From Elusimicrobiota bacterium (lineage in GTDB: Bacteria > Elusimicrobiota > Elusimicrobia > Elusimicrobiales > UBA9959), in contig JAPLKJ010000237.1 in the NCBI GenBank assembly GCA_026388125.1, forward strand, positions 1-32,010: 32,010 nucleotides of DNA, written 5' to 3'. This document shows positions 5,040 through 27,605 of the stretch, in pieces; the first letter of the stretch is position 1, and each line of letters opens with the position of its first letter. A program made the position numbers and the translations under genes. The notes under the pieces were generated by a model, which did no database searches, was not told the origin of the DNA, and saw only the letters and a program-made list of their open reading frames with translations.

Positions 5040-5144
5040 CATCAATAGACCCGCCCTCGCCCGAAGACTGACCGGCTAGGCGGGATAGGGGACGTATTTG
5101 AAGGGGTTATGGGGGCAGTATATTTAATTAATGTTTGTTTAATC

Positions 5145-5172
5145 CGTCCGGGAAGCCCGGCGGTTTTGTTTT
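5145..5172 (+). terminator. Terminator-like hairpin, punctuation repeat copy 5
   Basis: A truncated left arm (CGTCCGGG) with an intact right arm (CCCGGCGG) and TTTTGTTTT. It continues into the second copy of the TACAAT leader repeat. Confidence 0.5.
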
Positions 5173-6016: not shown

Positions 6017-6406
6017 ATGTCAAATCAAAAGAAAATTAAATTAAAAATGCCATGCGGCGGGATTATAGATTTGGAGCGGAAGGACCACCGGGATCCGACA
6101 GCTGTCTGCTCACTGGGGTGTTTTCACACGCCAGAGGAAATCCTCGGCGCTTTGGCGGCCTTAAGAGGCCCTTTGCTGAAGCCTTTCGATCTACTGCTTG
6201 TGCTGGTATGCCTTCCTCTTCTAGCCGGACTTGTATTGCTGGATAGTAATAACACTGTAAACATCTTTGGCCGCCATTGGAATTTTAAAAACTACCATTT
6301 TTTTATTTGGGATTGGACCATCATAGAAATAGGAGTGATTGTTATGATGCTTATATTTCTTATCAGGATCTTTATGAATCGACGGATCGACAAGGTTGAA
6401 AATTAG
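6017..6406 (+). CDS. Hypothetical membrane protein with two TM segments
   Basis: A 129-residue protein that I do not recognise. The N-terminal 50 residues are soluble and contain three cysteines and two histidines (MPCGG, VCSLGCFHTP), which might bind metal. Two hydrophobic segments follow, at about residues 57-75 (PFDLLLVLVCLPLLAGLVLL) and 100-120 (IIEIGVIVMMLIFLIRIF), separated by an aromatic-rich loop. Base composition is more AT-rich than in neighbouring genes. The ribosome site is weak (AGGA about 10 nt upstream of ATG). Confidence 0.55.
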   Translation: MSNQKKIKLKMPCGGIIDLERKDHRDPTAVCSLGCFHTPEEILGALAALRGPLLKPFDLLLVLVCLPLLAGLVLLDSNNTVNIFGRHWNFKNYHFFIWDWTIIEIGVIVMMLIFLIRIFMNRRIDKVEN

Positions 6407-6432
6407 CATGTCTAATGACAATAGGGGGATAG

Positions 6433-6480
6433 AGGACGCTGATGACGGTGTGCGGTCATATTTACTGTCAAGCCATGCGG
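6433..6480 (+). repeat. GGACGCTGATGAC-type interspersed repeat
   Basis: GAGGACGCTGATGACGGTGT leading to CAAGCCATGCGG, directly followed by a terminator hairpin as at 2804-2881. Confidence 0.55.
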
Positions 6481-6510
6481 AACCGCCGGAGAAACCCGGC
6501 GGTTTTGTTT
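6481..6510 (+). terminator. Terminator hairpin, punctuation repeat copy 6
   Basis: The stem AACCGCCGG...CCGGCGGTT encloses AGAAAC, followed by TTTGTTT. TAGAAT begins 2 nt later. Confidence 0.7.
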
Positions 6511-6511
6511 G

Positions 6512-6517
6512 TAGAAT
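6512..6517 (+). promoter_or_regulatory. -10-like box TAGAAT, predicted leaderless start
   Basis: The box ends 7 nt before ATG 6525 (an in-frame ATG also lies at 6519). No SD site is possible in this gap. Confidence 0.5.
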
Positions 6518-6524
6518 TATGGGC

Positions 6525-7001
6525 ATGAGAATTAAAACCGGAGTTGCAGGCTTGCTCCTGCTGGGTACGCTGCTGGGCGGCTGTGGGGGCAAGTCGGATG
6601 ATCTTTCTACCGACCCTGAGTACGCGTACATCATGGGGCATGTCTTTGAGACCACCAGCGTCATGCTTATCATTAGCCGCGGGCCCGATTCTATAGCGCT
6701 GGAGGTGCCCGGTACGGGCGGCGCTCCCGAGCTTTCTGAACTGCCTGCGGACCTGCCGTACAAGGATTACAATGGCGACATCGTGCTGGGGGTAATGCCT
6801 GCCGGCAGCCGGTTCCAGGTGGTACGCGTTTACCGGGGCTGGAGCACGGTAAGCGGAGGTTACATCAGCTATGTGCTGCGCATGCAGACCCCTAAAGAAT
6901 ACAGCAACTGGAACCTTTCCGATATAGGATTGATAGATTATGGCGTCAGGCCCGGGCGTTTTAAGAAAAAACTGATCAGGGAAGTGGTTTGGCGGGATTA
7001 G
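6525..7001 (+). CDS. Hypothetical lipoprotein
   Basis: A 158-residue protein of unknown function. The N-terminus is a typical lipoprotein signal (MRIKTGVAGLLLLGTLLGGC) with lipobox LGGC and Cys20 as the lipidation site. The mature part looks beta-rich (MLIISRGPDSIALEVP, GDIVLGVMPAGSRFQVVRVYRG) and ends with a basic tail. I chose ATG 6525 because it begins the signal peptide and lies at the leaderless distance from TAGAAT. A longer reading frame upstream runs through the terminator and should not be translated. The gene is followed after a few bases by a decayed ORF6N fragment. Confidence 0.75.
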   Translation: MRIKTGVAGLLLLGTLLGGCGGKSDDLSTDPEYAYIMGHVFETTSVMLIISRGPDSIALEVPGTGGAPELSELPADLPYKDYNGDIVLGVMPAGSRFQVVRVYRGWSTVSGGYISYVLRMQTPKEYSNWNLSDIGLIDYGVRPGRFKKKLIREVVWRD

Positions 7002-7008
7002 GGACCTT

Positions 7009-7219
7009 ATGCTGGATAGCGCTGGCGAATCTGTACGAAGTGCGCACGAAGAGCCTGAACAAAGCCGTTTCAAGGAATATTGAAAGCTTTCCGGCTGATT
7101 TCATGTTCCAGCTCCCGGCGGAAGAATACCGGTCTTTAAGGTTCCAATTTGGAACCTTAGAAAGAGGGGCCCATTCTAAGTGTTTGCCCCGGGTTTTCAT
7201 GGAGCAGGGCGTGGCGATG
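7009..7219 (+). pseudogene. ORF6N-domain gene fragment (frameshifted, truncated)
   Basis: The translation LANLYEVRTKSLNKAVSRNI then FPADFMFQLPAEEYRSLRFQ and [11 protein letters not shown] matches the ORF6N domain encoded intact at 28836-29357. The start reads MLDS in one frame and LANLYEV in another, so one frameshift lies near 7020. The family N-terminus and the whole C-terminal helical half are missing. The end of the fragment (GATGGGGAG) now serves as the ribosome site of the next gene. It carries an internal palindrome at 7137-7159. Confidence 0.8.
7137..7159. repeat. Palindrome inside ORF6N fragment
   Basis: An 11-bp arm TAAGGTTCCAA, one central T, and the exact complement TTGGAACCTTA. 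It lies at the same codons as the palindromes at 28025-28055 and 29139-29161. Confidence 0.85.
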
Positions 7220-7230
7220 GGGAGTATATT

Positions 7231-8184
7231 ATGCGAAAAAAGATCCTTGAGCCGGTAATGCTGGGCGGTTTGGTCCTGTCAGCGTTCTTATGCTGGTATA
7301 TCCTTTCTCGCGCCGTAACGGTGCCCGGCTCCAGCGTCTGGGGCGCCCCTATAACTATCTTCTTCATCCTGCTCGTGTTTTTCTTCATGTGCACGGTCCT
7401 CGTCAGGAAAGCCGCTTATCTGGTAACGGTCCTGGCCGCTTCGCTGCTGCTGAGCCTTGTTTTTACGGCCACGCTGCTCCATTTCGCTTTACTTCTGCTT
7501 TCTATCGTCATCGCTTATTACGCCATGCGCAATATACGGGAGAGCCTGGAGTTCTCGCTGAAGCTCCGTTTCTTCAATTCATTCATGACCGGCCGCAGTT
7601 ATCTCGTATTCGCATTGATCGTAGCTATTACCAGCCAGTATTACGCCCTGGTGGGCAGGGGCGCGGGCGAGGTGAATCTTCCGACCTTCGAGGTAAGCCG
7701 GGATGTGGCGCTTTCCCTTGGAAAAATATACGGCCGTATAAACCCGAAATATTCCTTTTTTTCATCCGCGCGGGAAATAACCGTTGATAACTTCATTCTG
7801 CAGAATCAGAAGGCAGATCTTCCCTGGCAGGATCCGGCACGGTCGGCTGCGGCCATAAACTCGGTGCTGGAGCAGGGAAGAAAACACCTCTCCGGGCTTT
7901 CAGGCAAGCAATTGAACGGCAGCGAACCGGTGGCCGATGTTTTTGTGGAGCTTGTCACCAGGAAGATAAACGACTATTTTACGGTCGGGATAGCGCAGTC
8001 CGGCAAATCCAGCCCCATCCCGCTGTTCCTTACCTGCGTACTCTTCCTTACCCTGCTGCCTATCGCTACTATCGTAGGTTATGCCGGCACCCTTTTCTCA
8101 GCGCTGCTATGCGGCGCCCTGCTTAAGAAAGGAATTATTAAAATGAAAATAAAGCAGGTTGAGGCTGAATCGTTGCTCTTCTAG
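7231..8184 (+). CDS. Hypothetical polytopic membrane protein
   Basis: A 317-residue membrane protein that I do not recognise. Hydrophobic segments lie at about residues 9-26, 40-57, 62-98 (probably two), 124-142 and 268-300 (one or two). A soluble loop of about 120 residues (145-265) with a mixed charged sequence lies between the last two groups and is probably extracytoplasmic. The start is ATG 7231, with GGGGAG 6 nt upstream; the frame is open further upstream, but only through the decayed ORF6N fragment. The gene is followed at once by a GGGGACG repeat and a terminator. Confidence 0.65.
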   Translation: MRKKILEPVMLGGLVLSAFLCWYILSRAVTVPGSSVWGAPITIFFILLVFFFMCTVLVRKAAYLVTVLAASLLLSLVFTATLLHFALLLLSIVIAYYAMRNIRESLEFSLKLRFFNSFMTGRSYLVFALIVAITSQYYALVGRGAGEVNLPTFEVSRDVALSLGKIYGRINPKYSFFSSAREITVDNFILQNQKADLPWQDPARSAAAINSVLEQGRKHLSGLSGKQLNGSEPVADVFVELVTRKINDYFTVGIAQSGKSSPIPLFLTCVLFLTLLPIATIVGYAGTLFSALLCGALLKKGIIKMKIKQVEAESLLF

Positions 8185-8223
8185 GGGACGTTTGACTTAA
8201 TGACTGTTTGACGGGCATGCGAA
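8184..8223 (+). repeat. GGGGACGTTTGAC-type interspersed repeat
   Basis: GGGGACGTTTGACTTAATGA then CTGTTTGACGGGCATGCG. A reverse-oriented relative lies at 29490-29526. It leads into terminator copy 7. Confidence 0.6.
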
Positions 8224-8253
8224 ACCGCCGGGGAAGCCCGGCGGTTTTGTTTT
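8224..8253 (+). terminator. Terminator hairpin, punctuation repeat copy 7
   Basis: A perfect 9-bp stem ACCGCCGGG/CCCGGCGGT, loop GAAG, then TTTGTTTT. It terminates the membrane protein gene 40 nt after its stop. Confidence 0.75.
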
Positions 8254-8420: not shown

Positions 8421-10349
8421 ATGAAAAAAACATTCTGCGCGGCGTCGTTGTTTCCCTCCCTTCTATTAGCCTCAAGCGTGGTCTTCGCCTCAAGCGGCGG
8501 GGCTATTCAACTGTCGGATGTTACCAAAATTCTACAAGATCAGAAAGATTTACAAGCCAAGCCGTTTCCCGGCCAGCCCGGCGGCTTTCCCGGCGGCTTT
8601 CCTGGCGGCTTTCCTGGCGGCCCCGGCGGCAATCACGGCGGTCAGCCCGGCCAACCTGGGCAGCCCGGCGGCGACCATGGCGGCCCCGGCGGCAATCACG
8701 GCGGTCAGCCCGGTCAGCCCGGTCAGCCTGGCCAGCCTCCCCAGCCGCCTCAGCCCCCTCAGCCTCCCCAGCCGCCTGTGGTAGATACCACTCAGGCGCA
8801 TAACGCCGGCTTAAGAGATGGCGCCGCAGTAGGCGAAAGAGAAGGCCGTCAGAGAGGTTACGCGGACGGCGTAGATTCCGGTGAAAGGGAAGGGCGCCAG
8901 AGAGGCACTAATGAAGGCGATGCCTCGGGCAGGCAAGCCGGCTATAGGGACGGCTATACCGTGGATCAGTCCGCGGGAACGCAGAGAGGCAACGCGGACG
9001 GCCAGAACGCCGGTACCGCTAACGGCACCGCGGCCGGCCAGAAGCGCTGCTATGACGAGGGCTATACGAACGGTTACAACTCCGCCTTCGCCACGGCGAA
9101 ACAGTTAGGCCTGCAGGATGCCGCTTCCTATAATGCGGGCTTCGCTAAGGGCCAGGCCGAGGCGGGTGTTACAGAGGCCGCGAACGGGCAGAAGGCCGGC
9201 TATCAGGCCGGTTTCAGCCAGCGCGAGGCCGAACTTCAGAACTCTACCTTGGATACTAAGGGCTTCTTCACGAAAAGCGCACTGACGAGGGGCATAACGA
9301 AGGGCCTTCCTATAGAGATGGCCCGCAACGGGTACAATACTCCTCAAGAGCAGCAAGCCTATCAGCAGGGTTATCAGGAAAGCTATCGCAATAGCTACCA
9401 GCGGGCGTATGAGTTCGCCAAGCGGCAGGGCTATAACGAGAGATTCCAGAACGCCTACAGGCAGGCCTACGACATGCAGTACTCGAGCAGCTACCGGACC
9501 GCCTATGCCGATGGCAAAGAAAAGGGTTACCAGGAAGCTTATCAGACGGCGTATAACACTACGTATAACTCGTACTACGATAGCTACAACAGAATGGAAT
9601 ATGCCGACCAGAGAGCCCAGGGCCTGAGCATCGGCCAGGCTACCGGCCAGAAGGAAGGTTTCGCTGCCGGCTGCGCCGTACAGACGAAGCTTGGCTACAA
9701 AGCGGGCTACGAGCAGACTACGGCCACGGTTTATCCCGCAGCCTTTGCCGCGGGCAAACAGGCCGGTATAGCGGCGGCGGACAAGTATTACAGCGAGAAC
9801 GCGGTGCTGAAGGTCTTCAACATCTCGTTCTACGACGAGAACGGTAACGGCCAGTTCGAGGCCAGCGAGAACGTAATGATGAAGGCCGAAATAAGGAACT
9901 ATGGTTCCCAGATGTCGGACACGGTAGCCATAGTGGTCAAGAACGAGCGCGGGGAAATAACCCTGGTGCCCGATCTGAAGGCCGCCGGCATAGGTGGCCG
10001 GGCGAAAACCGTGGTGACCTTGAAAGTGGGCAAGCTCTACGATGTGGTGGCGCCGGATGCGGATGCCCTTGTGGTGACGTTCTCGGAAAAGGGCCAGCCC
10101 GTAGGCGATGCCCGCCAGATGTATACCAGGACCAACCCCAATAAGGTGGGCGTGGTTATAAAGGACGGCACCGATGTAAAGAAAAAAGCCACCTGGTTCT
10201 TCCCCGGGGACGCGGCAACGCTCAACCACGGCGAGAAAGTGTTAATAATCGGCCAGGACGGGAGCTTTTACAAAGTACGCAGGGCCGAATTAGGCAGCGG
10301 CAACTGGACCGAGGGTTTTATCAAGAGCAATGAACTGAACCTGCAGTAA
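8421..10349 (+). CDS. Large exported repeat protein: Gly/Pro collagen-like, Gly/Tyr repeats, C-terminal SH3-like end
   Basis: A 642-residue protein. A signal peptide spans residues 1-24 (SSVVFA). Residues 48-119 are low-complexity GGFPGG, GQPGQPG and QPPQPP repeats. Residues 126-270 have short repeats of the form G-x-x-x-G with Asp/Arg/Gln (AGLRDGAAVGEREGRQRGYADG). Residues 310-395 are a Tyr/Gln/Ala-rich tract of roughly 4-residue spacing (QQGYQESYRNSYQRAYEFAK). Residues 460-565 look like a beta-sandwich of CARDB/DUF11 type (LKVFNISFYDENGNGQFEAS, with an EF-hand-like DENGNGQFE). The C-terminus (575-642) resembles a bacterial SH3 domain (WFFPGDAATLNHGEKVLIIG). The start is ATG 8421 with AGGGG 7 nt upstream. 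It is likely a surface or matrix structural protein. Only the signal peptide and repeats are certain. Confidence 0.75.
   Translation: MKKTFCAASLFPSLLLASSVVFASSGGAIQLSDVTKILQDQKDLQAKPFPGQPGGFPGGFPGGFPGGPGGNHGGQPGQPGQPGGDHGGPGGNHGGQPGQPGQPGQPPQPPQPPQPPQPPVVDTTQAHNAGLRDGAAVGEREGRQRGYADGVDSGEREGRQRGTNEGDASGRQAGYRDGYTVDQSAGTQRGNADGQNAGTANGTAAGQKRCYDEGYTNGYNSAFATAKQLGLQDAASYNAGFAKGQAEAGVTEAANGQKAGYQAGFSQREAELQNSTLDTKGFFTKSALTRGITKGLPIEMARNGYNTPQEQQAYQQGYQESYRNSYQRAYEFAKRQGYNERFQNAYRQAYDMQYSSSYRTAYADGKEKGYQEAYQTAYNTTYNSYYDSYNRMEYADQRAQGLSIGQATGQKEGFAAGCAVQTKLGYKAGYEQTTATVYPAAFAAGKQAGIAAADKYYSENAVLKVFNISFYDENGNGQFEASENVMMKAEIRNYGSQMSDTVAIVVKNERGEITLVPDLKAAGIGGRAKTVVTLKVGKLYDVVAPDADALVVTFSEKGQPVGDARQMYTRTNPNKVGVVIKDGTDVKKKATWFFPGDAATLNHGEKVLIIGQDGSFYKVRRAELGSGNWTEGFIKSNELNLQ
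8571..8775 (+). repeat. Tandem short repeats coding GGFPGG / GQPGQPG / QPP
   Basis: Imperfect tandem units such as GGCGGCTTTCC and CAGCCCGG(C/T) make up the collagen-like region. A larger block (GGCCCCGGCGGCAATCACGG) occurs twice, near 8620 and 8680. Such DNA can change copy number by slippage. Confidence 0.8.
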
Positions 10350-10373
10350 AGAAGTTTCAATAAGTAATACAGA

Positions 10374-10403
10374 ACCGCCGGGGCAGCCCGGCGGTTTTGT
10401 TTT
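10374..10403 (+). terminator. Terminator hairpin, punctuation repeat copy 8
   Basis: Stem ACCGCCGGG/CCCGGCGGT with a GCAG loop, then TTTGTTTT, 25 nt after the repeat-protein stop. Confidence 0.75.
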
Positions 10404-10446
10404 GGGGGCGGGGATGAGGCAGGCCGGAGGCGGTGGTCTTTTAAGG

Positions 10447-11972: not shown

Positions 11973-12004
11973 ACCGCCGGGGCAGCCCGGCGGTTTTATT
12001 TTTT
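11973..12004 (+). terminator. Terminator hairpin, punctuation repeat copy 9
   Basis: Stem ACCGCCGGG/CCCGGCGGT with a GCAG loop and a stronger U-tract (TTTTATTTTTT) than the other copies. It lies 16 nt after the HEAT gene stop. Confidence 0.8.
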
Positions 12005-12820: not shown

Positions 12821-12850
12821 ACCGCCGGGGAAACCCGGCGGTTTTGTTTT
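12821..12850 (+). terminator. Terminator hairpin, punctuation repeat copy 10
   Basis: Stem ACCGCCGGG/CCCGGCGGT with a GAAA loop and TTTTGTTTT. It is 36 nt after the exported-protein stop and just beyond the convergent DUF808 fragment. Confidence 0.75.
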
Positions 12851-13201: not shown

Positions 13202-13231
13202 ACCGCCGGGGAAGCCCGGCGGTTTTGTTTT
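13202..13231 (+). terminator. Terminator hairpin, punctuation repeat copy 11
   Basis: Stem ACCGCCGGG/CCCGGCGGT, loop GAAG, TTTTGTTTTA. There is no plus-strand gene directly upstream, as the DUF808 gene is divergent. This copy may insulate the M3-like gene. TAGAAT at 13250-13255 is 18 nt further on. Confidence 0.65.
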
Positions 13232-16621: not shown

Positions 16622-16651
16622 GCCGCCGGGAAAGCCCGGCGGTTTTGTTTT
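16622..16651 (+). terminator. Terminator hairpin, punctuation repeat copy 13
   Basis: GCCGCCGGG/CCCGGCGGT with an AAAG loop and TTTTGTTTT. TAGAAT begins 2 nt after the tail, the tightest terminator-promoter fusion in the window. Confidence 0.75.
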
Positions 16652-19900: not shown

Positions 19901-19930
19901 CCCGCCGAGGAGGCCCGGCGGTTTTGTTTT
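19901..19930 (+). terminator. Terminator hairpin, punctuation repeat copy 14
   Basis: CCGCCGAGGAGGCCCGGCGG, with a 5-bp closing stem and a larger loop than other copies, then TTTTGTTTT and TAGAAT at 19933-19938. Confidence 0.6.
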
Positions 19931-20912: not shown

Positions 20913-20943
20913 ACCGCCGGGGGAAGCCCGGCGGTTTTGTTTT
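20913..20943 (+). terminator. Terminator hairpin, punctuation repeat copy 15
   Basis: ACCGCCGGG/CCCGGCGGT with a GGAAG loop and TTTTGTTTT, starting 6 nt after the pseudouridine synthase stop and touching TAGAAT. Confidence 0.75.
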
Positions 20944-24978: not shown

Positions 24979-26634
24979 ATGAGCCTACCAAAATTAAACT
25001 TACAACGCACATTCTTCGAGCCAGAAATTCTGTTCCCCGGCCTTGGCAAAGCGCCCGGCGCCGAGCGGTTCAGCTTTTTTGCAGAACACATTCTGCCCGA
25101 GCTTCGCAAACAGCGCCCGGCGCTGGAGCGCATGTATTGCGCGGACAACGGTCGGCCCGCCGAGGAGCCGGTGCGGATGCTGGCGGCGCTAGTCCTGCAG
25201 TTCATGGAGCGTATGCCCGACCGGCAGGCGGCGGAGGCATGCAGTTTTGACCTGCGCTGGAAACTGGCGTTGGGAATGGAGGCTGATGAGCCGGCGTTCC
25301 ACCCTACGAGTTTAGTTAAGTTTCGAGAGCGGCTGCTGGCGCATGGTCTGGAGCAGCTTGGCTTTGAGGCCGTATTGGAGCAGATGAGTGCGGCCGGGTA
25401 TTTGCCCAAGCGCACGCGGCAGCGCCTAGATTCCACACACATAATAGGTCTGGTGAGCCATATGACCAGACTTGATTGTGTGCGCGAGACGCTGCGCCTG
25501 GCGCTGGAGGATTTGGCGCAGATCGAGAACTTGCCCCGGCCTGCGGCCTGGGCGCTATGGTGGGAACGTTACGTCGAAAGTCGCATAGACTACAAAAGTT
25601 CCGGTGATATTCTGCGTCTGAAAATGAGCCAGGCGGGTTTGGATGCGCGGGACGTACTGAACTGGGTGAACGGATTGCCGCCGGAGATACGGCAGGGCGA
25701 AGCGGTGCGGCTTTTGCAGCGGGTTTTTGATGAGAACTTTGAAACACGTCACGACGGGACAGTGGAGCAATCGCGTGCGCGGCCTGCGGGTGCTGTTCAG
25801 AACCCGCACAATCCTGACGCCCAGTGGAGCTACAAATCCACGATGAAGAACAAAGAGTGGGTAGGCCACAAAGTGCAGGTGGCGGAAACGGTTGAAGCAG
25901 CGCCGCGCAGCACTGGTGAGCCGACAAAGAACGTGATAACAGCCATAGTAACACAGAGCGCGCCCGAGAGCGAGAAGGCAGGTATGGCCGCGGTGTTAAA
26001 AGAGCAGCGGCAGTTGGGTTTAGAGAAGCCTGAAGTAATTTATGCGGACGCGGGGTATGTGTCAGGGCCAAGCATGGCCAAAGCCAGTGCGGAGGGTTTT
26101 ACGTTGATGGGCCCGGCGCTGCCTTCGGCTAAGCGTGGCGTGTATCCATCCGAAGCGTTCGAAGTAAATGTCGAGCGGCGCTCGGCGGTCTGCCCGGCGG
26201 GCAAGACCAGCACGCAATGCGCGCGGATGAAAGCCGCGAAGACCGGCAGGATCACTTACCGGTTTGAATGGGTCGGCTGCTGTGACGGTTGTAATTTAAA
26301 GGCGGAGTGTCTTCATAAAGGTGAACGGGGCCGGATGCTGCGTGTAAACGAACATCACACATTTTCACAGACCCGCTGGCAATTGATGCGCACGGCGGAG
26401 TTTAAGAAAGATATGCACCACCGCAACGGGATCGAAGGGACACACAGTGAGTTGGTACGGGGGTATGGATTACGCAAGGCACGGTATCGCGGGGAAAAGA
26501 AGGTCCGGCTGCAAAACTATTTGATTGGTGCGGCCTGCAACATAAAACGCTGGTGCCGGCGTGTTACCTGGGAGGCGAAGCAGGCCATGGTCGGGATTGA
26601 AAGTATAGCAAAGCCAATGGCGGTGCCAGCTTAA
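24979..26634 (+). CDS. IS1182-family DDE transposase
   Basis: A 551-residue transposase. The N-terminal DUF772-type domain (residues 20-140) includes PAEEPVRMLAALVLQFMERM and HPTSLVKFRERLL. The RNase-H-like catalytic core has Asp151 (RLDSTHIIG), Asp357 (VIYADAGYVSG) and Glu486 (NGIEGTHSELVRGYGLRKAR), consistent with a DDE triad. A Cys cluster (VCPAG...CCDGC...AEC, 405-444) is typical of IS1182 and resembles a zinc ribbon. Length and layout are complete and no frameshift is seen. TATAAT directly precedes the ATG (24973-24978), which is too close for a standard promoter, so the true promoter lies further up near the palindrome. Confidence 0.9.
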   Translation: MSLPKLNLQRTFFEPEILFPGLGKAPGAERFSFFAEHILPELRKQRPALERMYCADNGRPAEEPVRMLAALVLQFMERMPDRQAAEACSFDLRWKLALGMEADEPAFHPTSLVKFRERLLAHGLEQLGFEAVLEQMSAAGYLPKRTRQRLDSTHIIGLVSHMTRLDCVRETLRLALEDLAQIENLPRPAAWALWWERYVESRIDYKSSGDILRLKMSQAGLDARDVLNWVNGLPPEIRQGEAVRLLQRVFDENFETRHDGTVEQSRARPAGAVQNPHNPDAQWSYKSTMKNKEWVGHKVQVAETVEAAPRSTGEPTKNVITAIVTQSAPESEKAGMAAVLKEQRQLGLEKPEVIYADAGYVSGPSMAKASAEGFTLMGPALPSAKRGVYPSEAFEVNVERRSAVCPAGKTSTQCARMKAAKTGRITYRFEWVGCCDGCNLKAECLHKGERGRMLRVNEHHTFSQTRWQLMRTAEFKKDMHHRNGIEGTHSELVRGYGLRKARYRGEKKVRLQNYLIGAACNIKRWCRRVTWEAKQAMVGIESIAKPMAVPA

Positions 26635-27577: not shown

Positions 27578-27605
27578 CCAAAACCGCCAGACTACCCCGG
27601 CGGTG
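27578..27605 (-). terminator. Punctuation terminator hairpin in reverse orientation
   Basis: On the minus strand ACCGCCGGGGTAGTCTGGCGGT then TTTGGG. It is a degenerate member of the plus-strand family, again directly upstream of a -10 box and gene start. The T-tail is short. Confidence 0.5.

Follow-up and report, generated by a model that had tools for sequence, protein, structure and literature searches.

The question raised by this locus is what an exported protein might do with two long stretches in which glycine or alanine, often followed by an aromatic residue, recurs at every fourth position. The gene lies in a 32,010-nucleotide stretch of an Elusimicrobiota contig (the whole stretch analyzed, hereafter the window). 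A sequence-only reading had laid out its product as a signal peptide, a collagen-like tract, a G-x-x-x-G segment, a separate aromatic tract, a beta-sandwich with an EF-like loop and an SH3-like end; this order of modules was right, while the collagen label, the separation of the two repeat segments, the placing of tyrosines on one helix face and the view of repeat number had to be corrected. Our answer, to which we give about even odds, is that the protein is exported to the cell envelope and serves there as a self-associating rod or tether.

The Gene and Its Transcription Unit

The coding sequence (8421..10349, + strand) extends from an ATG at 8421 to a stop codon at 10347-10349. Both the open reading frame with its translation and the alignment of 33 homologues bear out the start and stop first assigned to it, and the aligned homologues share the same MKK start. 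The open reading frame is a real gene, present in a single copy in the 3.47 Mb source genome. When it was compared with five relatives, dN was well below dS in both repeat blocks described below (dN/dS against locus L043: 0.028/0.254 in block A and 0.039/0.172 in block B).

Residues 1-23 (8421..8489, + strand) read directly as a signal peptide devoid of a lipobox, with the sequence MKKTFCAASLFPSLLLASSVVFA up to the predicted cleavage point (VFA/SS) and SS after it. The hydrophobic N-terminus is conserved among homologues and, judged from sequence, the 642-residue protein is exported via this Sec-type signal.

Two strong terminator-type hairpins flank the gene, which is therefore probably transcribed alone. 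One ends the preceding gene (8216..8252, + strand; fold -27.2 kcal/mol, z -5.9, with a U-rich tail), and the other sets the gene apart downstream (10368..10405, + strand; fold -27.3 kcal/mol, z -6.3). Near-identical hairpins of the form CCGCCGGGGnAGCCCGGCGGTTTTG occur 13 times in the window, often right behind gene ends, at 142-166, 2853-2877, 5144-5168, 6483-6507, 8225-8249, 10375-10399, 11974-11998, 12822-12846, 13203-13227, 16623-16647, 19902-19926, 20915-20939 and 27579-27603 (the search gave 15 matches, two of them reverse reads of the same palindromes; shuffles expect 0). They represent either a uniform terminator sequence or a small mobile repeat. The window also holds an intact-looking DDE transposase gene (DDE_Tnp_1_6, DUF772) at 24979-26634.

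The lipoprotein and HEAT-repeat genes downstream had been proposed to belong to the same envelope structure. This could not be upheld, and an operon with them was rejected: a terminator hairpin intervenes and the neighborhood is not conserved, as the lipoprotein gene adjoins none of the relatives and a HEAT gene lies near only 1 of 32, on the opposite side. No conserved partner was found near most homologues, the commonest neighbor family occurring in 8 of 33 loci, and the gene would seem to function with no operon partner of its own. A membrane gene upstream (7180-8184) keeps its linkage in 7 of 33 loci, always on the + strand and about 1-3.5 kb upstream, a linkage that may be simple synteny. 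An exported trypsin-like protease (Trypsin_2) is encoded at 928-2040 of the window, and relatives of it lie 1.6-5 kb from the repeat gene in 4 of 32 other loci (L052, L067, L068 and L071), possibly again through synteny.

Distribution

Within one Elusimicrobiota family, 37 of 59 genomes yielded relatives. Of the 38 good genomes in that family 14 lack the gene, and this cell plan can therefore do without it. No full-length or repeat-region relative was detected in about 236 sampled genomes of other Elusimicrobiota families, one of which matches the Ig-type domain weakly and in part, and the phages, plasmids and viral contigs searched held none. A genome-wide search for the in-phase GGN pattern (9 codons) gave, among the matches listed, mostly low-complexity Gly-rich stretches plus the family itself, with no comparable second family. 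Two genomes carry two paralogues each (G107, contigs 15 and 64; G111, contigs 15 and 26); in the second copies the SH3-like part is shortened.

The C-Terminal Ig-like and SH3-like Domains

According to an AlphaFold2 model of residues 444-642 (mean pLDDT 73), the C-terminus is a CARDB-like Ig sandwich followed by an SH3 domain, which agrees with the beta-sandwich and SH3-like end recognized earlier. In Foldseek comparisons, the Ig-like part (residues ~460-570; 9798..10130, + strand) resembled the CARDB domain of PF1109 (3idu, TMt 0.60), while other Ig-like domains also matched, among them carbohydrate-binding Ig folds such as the Wzt CBD. The likeness to CARDB comprises the beta-sandwich, an acidic DxNxDG loop, a subsequent E-x-V-type strand and an N-x-G turn. 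In our protein the acidic EF-like loop is DENGNGQFEASE (residues 472-483; 9834..9869, + strand), whose D, G, F, E, A and E columns are invariant or nearly so. However, the CARDB profile (PF07705) matched only 1 of the 33 members, and weakly (E 0.11), so that the modeled resemblance is one of fold only and the domain is not assigned to the CARDB family.

The SH3-like domain (residues ~571-642; 10131..10346, + strand) is recognized by the Pfam SH3_3 profile (PF08239) in 24 of 33 members at E<=1 (best 4.5e-4), whereas the window's own copy gives no sequence match. In fold, its last 70 residues resemble SH3 domains, among them the bacterial ones 2kt8 and 2krs (TMt 0.68 and 0.64, rmsd 2.4).

Some sequences resemble the Ig part alone. 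A reverse-strand open reading frame near 6190-7746 of locus L073 (G281 contig 141) matches it weakly; read by eye, this frame encodes a CARDB-like DANGNGVYEPGE domain and then a caspase-like domain. The Omnitrophota contig L042 and G053 were rejected as relatives, their weak matches spanning only the Ig/acidic-loop type domain.

A C-terminus of this kind invites the reading that the protein is a cell-surface adhesin, whose repeats form a stalk projecting the Ig/SH3 tip to bind a surface, mineral, glycan or cell. Stalk plus tip is a common adhesin plan, CARDB stands for "cell adhesion related domain", and both the similarity to carbohydrate-binding Ig folds and the patchy occurrence in the family would suit such a role. 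However, the sequence has no visible outer-membrane anchor, lipobox, sortase, autotransporter or PEP-CTERM-type signal, and the tip does not consistently evolve faster than the stalk. An adhesin is a candidate, if on balance a rather unlikely one.

The Tetrad Blocks

Between the signal peptide and the repeats lies a low-complexity tract rich in Pro, Gly and Gln (residues ~46-119; 8556..8777, + strand). Its length is hypervariable, the distance from the initial Met to a VDT motif spanning 84-206 residues among homologues, and it may serve as a flexible spacer. The tract had been labeled collagen-like, an identity that we rejected because a long uninterrupted G-X-Y run is missing: the longest run of consecutive triplets is 4 in the window copy and 0-9 in the relatives.

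The repeats themselves form two blocks that take up the middle 330 residues of the protein. Block A (residues 124-276; 8790..9248, + strand) starts with 12 consecutive GxxxG motifs (G130-G178), continues with more in-register glycines and undergoes a single register shift near residues 231-240. After a linker of variable length (residues 277-295; 9249..9305, + strand; 10-20 residues among homologues), block B (residues 296-455; 9306..9785, + strand) consists mainly of [A/G/S]-Y-x-x tetrads. One register modulo 4 accounts for 22 of 28 glycines in block A and, in block B, for 13 of 14 glycines and 23 of 27 Tyr/Phe residues; none of 20,000 shuffles attained any of these counts. Since Tyr or Phe nearly always directly follows the Gly or Ala of a tetrad, the GxxxG and aromatic tracts, formerly treated as separate segments, are one repeat, [G/A]-[Y/F]-x-x, in a shared register. 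Leu, Ile, Val and Met make up only about 6-7% of the block residues, so the blocks have no heptad hydrophobic core.

Not a single indel was found in either block among the 33 aligned homologues, down to about 53% identity. Length changes are confined to the N-terminal region with the Pro/Gly tract, to the linker (277-291), where the sole indels between the two blocks lie, and to a few SH3-like residues. The run of 12 consecutive GxxxG is kept in 32 of 33 homologues and comprises 8 in the remaining one. Repeat number, which had been expected to be worth comparing between strains, was therefore constant across species in the tetrad blocks, with appreciable change only in the N-terminal tract and the linker. 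Strict register and indel-free blocks together imply that both the length and the phase of the repeats are important. The net charge of block A is negative in 32 of 33 homologues and that of block B positive in 31 of 33, making A the acidic and B the basic block. Cys210 (9048..9050, + strand), which occupies the Gly ("a") position of a CYDE tetrad, is invariant (33/33); Cys418 (9672..9674, + strand) is conserved in 27 of 33 and lost in six species.

The mature chain contains 38 Tyr and 92 Gly, is exported and has no membrane anchor, as might be expected of a secreted matrix protein whose Tyr/Gly-rich chains self-assemble extracellularly, perhaps with cross-linking of tyrosines to dityrosine. 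However, such proteins usually vary in repeat number, whereas the length of the tetrad blocks is fixed, and no oxidase or peroxidase gene was seen next to it. We consider this explanation distinctly unlikely.

Structure prediction for the repeat region, which had been suggested as a check, returned helices, but mostly at low confidence (AlphaFold, 11 sequences; mean pLDDT 53, pTM 0.37). A continuous helix is predicted at residues 368-459, in block B (mean block pLDDT about 51-80 for the most part). Going by these models, the blocks are likely helical; because the prediction is of low confidence, the rod geometry given below is one that we infer. The low confidence would also fit a disordered, low-complexity filler whose repeats were born of slippage, and the Pro/Gly tract does behave in that way. 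But the complete lack of indels in 33 homologues, the low dN relative to dS in both blocks and the invariance of non-repeat residues such as Cys210 make a filler without defined structure very improbable for the tetrad blocks.

Relation to FliH and Yae1/Lto1

Profile searches found no characterized family covering the full length of the protein, a whole-protein PDB sequence search gave nothing meaningful, and when PDB sequences were searched with the family profile, no relative of the tetrad blocks with a solved structure turned up. The earlier statement that the protein matches no known family thus holds for its full length but not for its repeats, which resemble the glycine repeats of deca-GX3 proteins and FliH.

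Because of its Gly every four residues, block A scores against the Pfam Yae1_N (PF09811) and NCBIfam FliH models. Yae1_N gave 23.9 bits with the full-length protein and 30.8 bits with residues 126-446 alone (gathering cutoff 27.5), and matched all 33 homologues at E<=1; the conserved GxxxG run attains the about ten consecutive GX3 units of the deca-GX3 motif. However, the signal peptide and the extra Ig/SH3 domains, as read from the sequence, set the protein apart from a cytosolic adaptor of the Fe-S machinery. The FliH model gave 49.1 bits against a cutoff of 180, on the repeats only, and the FliH C-terminal domain (PF02108) is absent from both the protein and the source genome. With FliH undetected in the genome and an export signal at its own N-terminus, the protein is assigned to neither family. 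That it should be a displaced FliH- or Yae1-like adaptor binding an ATPase or Fe-S target is scarcely conceivable, the match of both models to block A being outweighed by the export signal, at odds with a cytosolic role, the missing FliH C-terminal domain, the low FliH score and a genome devoid of detectable FliH.

The similarity to these repeats is nonetheless informative. The primary GxxxG repeats of FliH/YscL likewise consist of consecutive GxxxG motifs with predicted helix pairing and a preference for Tyr/Phe after Gly, these residues occupying more than 45% of the x1 position (PMC2674601); Tyr plus Phe amount to 68% at the b position of our block B. FliH differs in being cytosolic and in having a mean of 2.8 and at most 10-12 consecutive GxxxG, in repeats of variable length, whereas our protein has 12 uninterrupted GxxxG within about 75 tetrad units in two fixed-length blocks; it is also exported, several times longer, without a FliH domain and encoded in an unrelated gene context. 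The deca-GX3 motif of Yae1/Lto1 (PF09811) has Gly every 4 residues over ~40 residues, and the Lto1 glycines are required for the complex with Yae1, which their mutation breaks (PMC4523923). Those proteins are eukaryotic and cytosolic with a single ten-unit motif, whereas ours has many units, plus Tyr tetrads, export and the Ig/SH3 domains. By analogy, helix pairing in our protein most likely follows the mode of the FliH and deca-GX3 repeats. The self-association suggested by the sequence-only reading is plausible in this light, the tetrads following the statistics of these helix-pairing repeats.

A Proposed Self-Associating Envelope Rod

How might the blocks be arranged in the rod or tether that we favor? 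With a turn of about 400 degrees for every four residues of an alpha-helix, the Gly/Tyr stripe cannot keep to a single face but winds around the helix in a right-handed sense. The tyrosines, which had been placed along one face of a helix, would accordingly drift by about +40 degrees per tetrad and spiral around it. For a tetrad helix pair 6.5-7.5 A apart, with 3.60-3.65 residues per turn, we calculated a pitch of about 50-60 A and a right-handed crossing angle of about -38 to -52 degrees. With these values a continuous right-handed coil is geometrically self-consistent, and the crossing angle is close to that of membrane GxxxG pairs.

It speaks against the rod that helices rich in Gly are, on their own, intrinsically unstable. 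The blocks, of 153 and 160 residues, would each measure up to about 23-24 nm as an alpha-helix. Each would pair with another such helix via its glycine stripe, with the Tyr next to each Gly packed against the backbone of the partner. With its period of four residues, the repeat would force a right-handed, glycine-tight, two-stranded coil rather than a left-handed heptad coil. The Ig and SH3-like domains, through putative glycan binding, would anchor the rod in the envelope, on peptidoglycan or on another glycan.

Two modes of pairing can be envisaged. In one, pairing would occur between chains, possibly locked by the invariant Cys210, whose location in the interface would suit a disulfide-locked parallel dimer. 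In the other, the acidic block A would pair with the basic block B. A simple A/B hairpin turning at about residue 286 and stapled by Cys210-Cys418 was tried and rejected: such a turn would bring residue 210 opposite about residue 362 instead of 418, which leaves the cysteine pair unexplained by a plain hairpin. The source genome encodes two DsbA-like proteins (CPYC and CPAC) with exported or membrane-anchored N-termini; VKOR was not found in it.

More tentatively, the protein may represent a new exported structural class: a continuous right-handed, glycine-tight, two-stranded Gly-Tyr-x-x coil, tens of nm long and possibly Cys-closed, serving as an envelope rod in one Elusimicrobiota family. 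We regard this as a possible, though somewhat doubtful, extension of the rod proposal.

Long GxxxG repeats in soluble proteins other than FliH were described in 2009 as extremely rare, with no structure known (PMC2674601). The protein described here is a naturally occurring example that is soluble, exported and much longer, and its register is fixed in dozens of species; it is well suited to working out how helices built on tetrad glycines pair. For the little-studied Elusimicrobiota, whose member studied here is uncultured, it is a candidate architectural element of the cell envelope.
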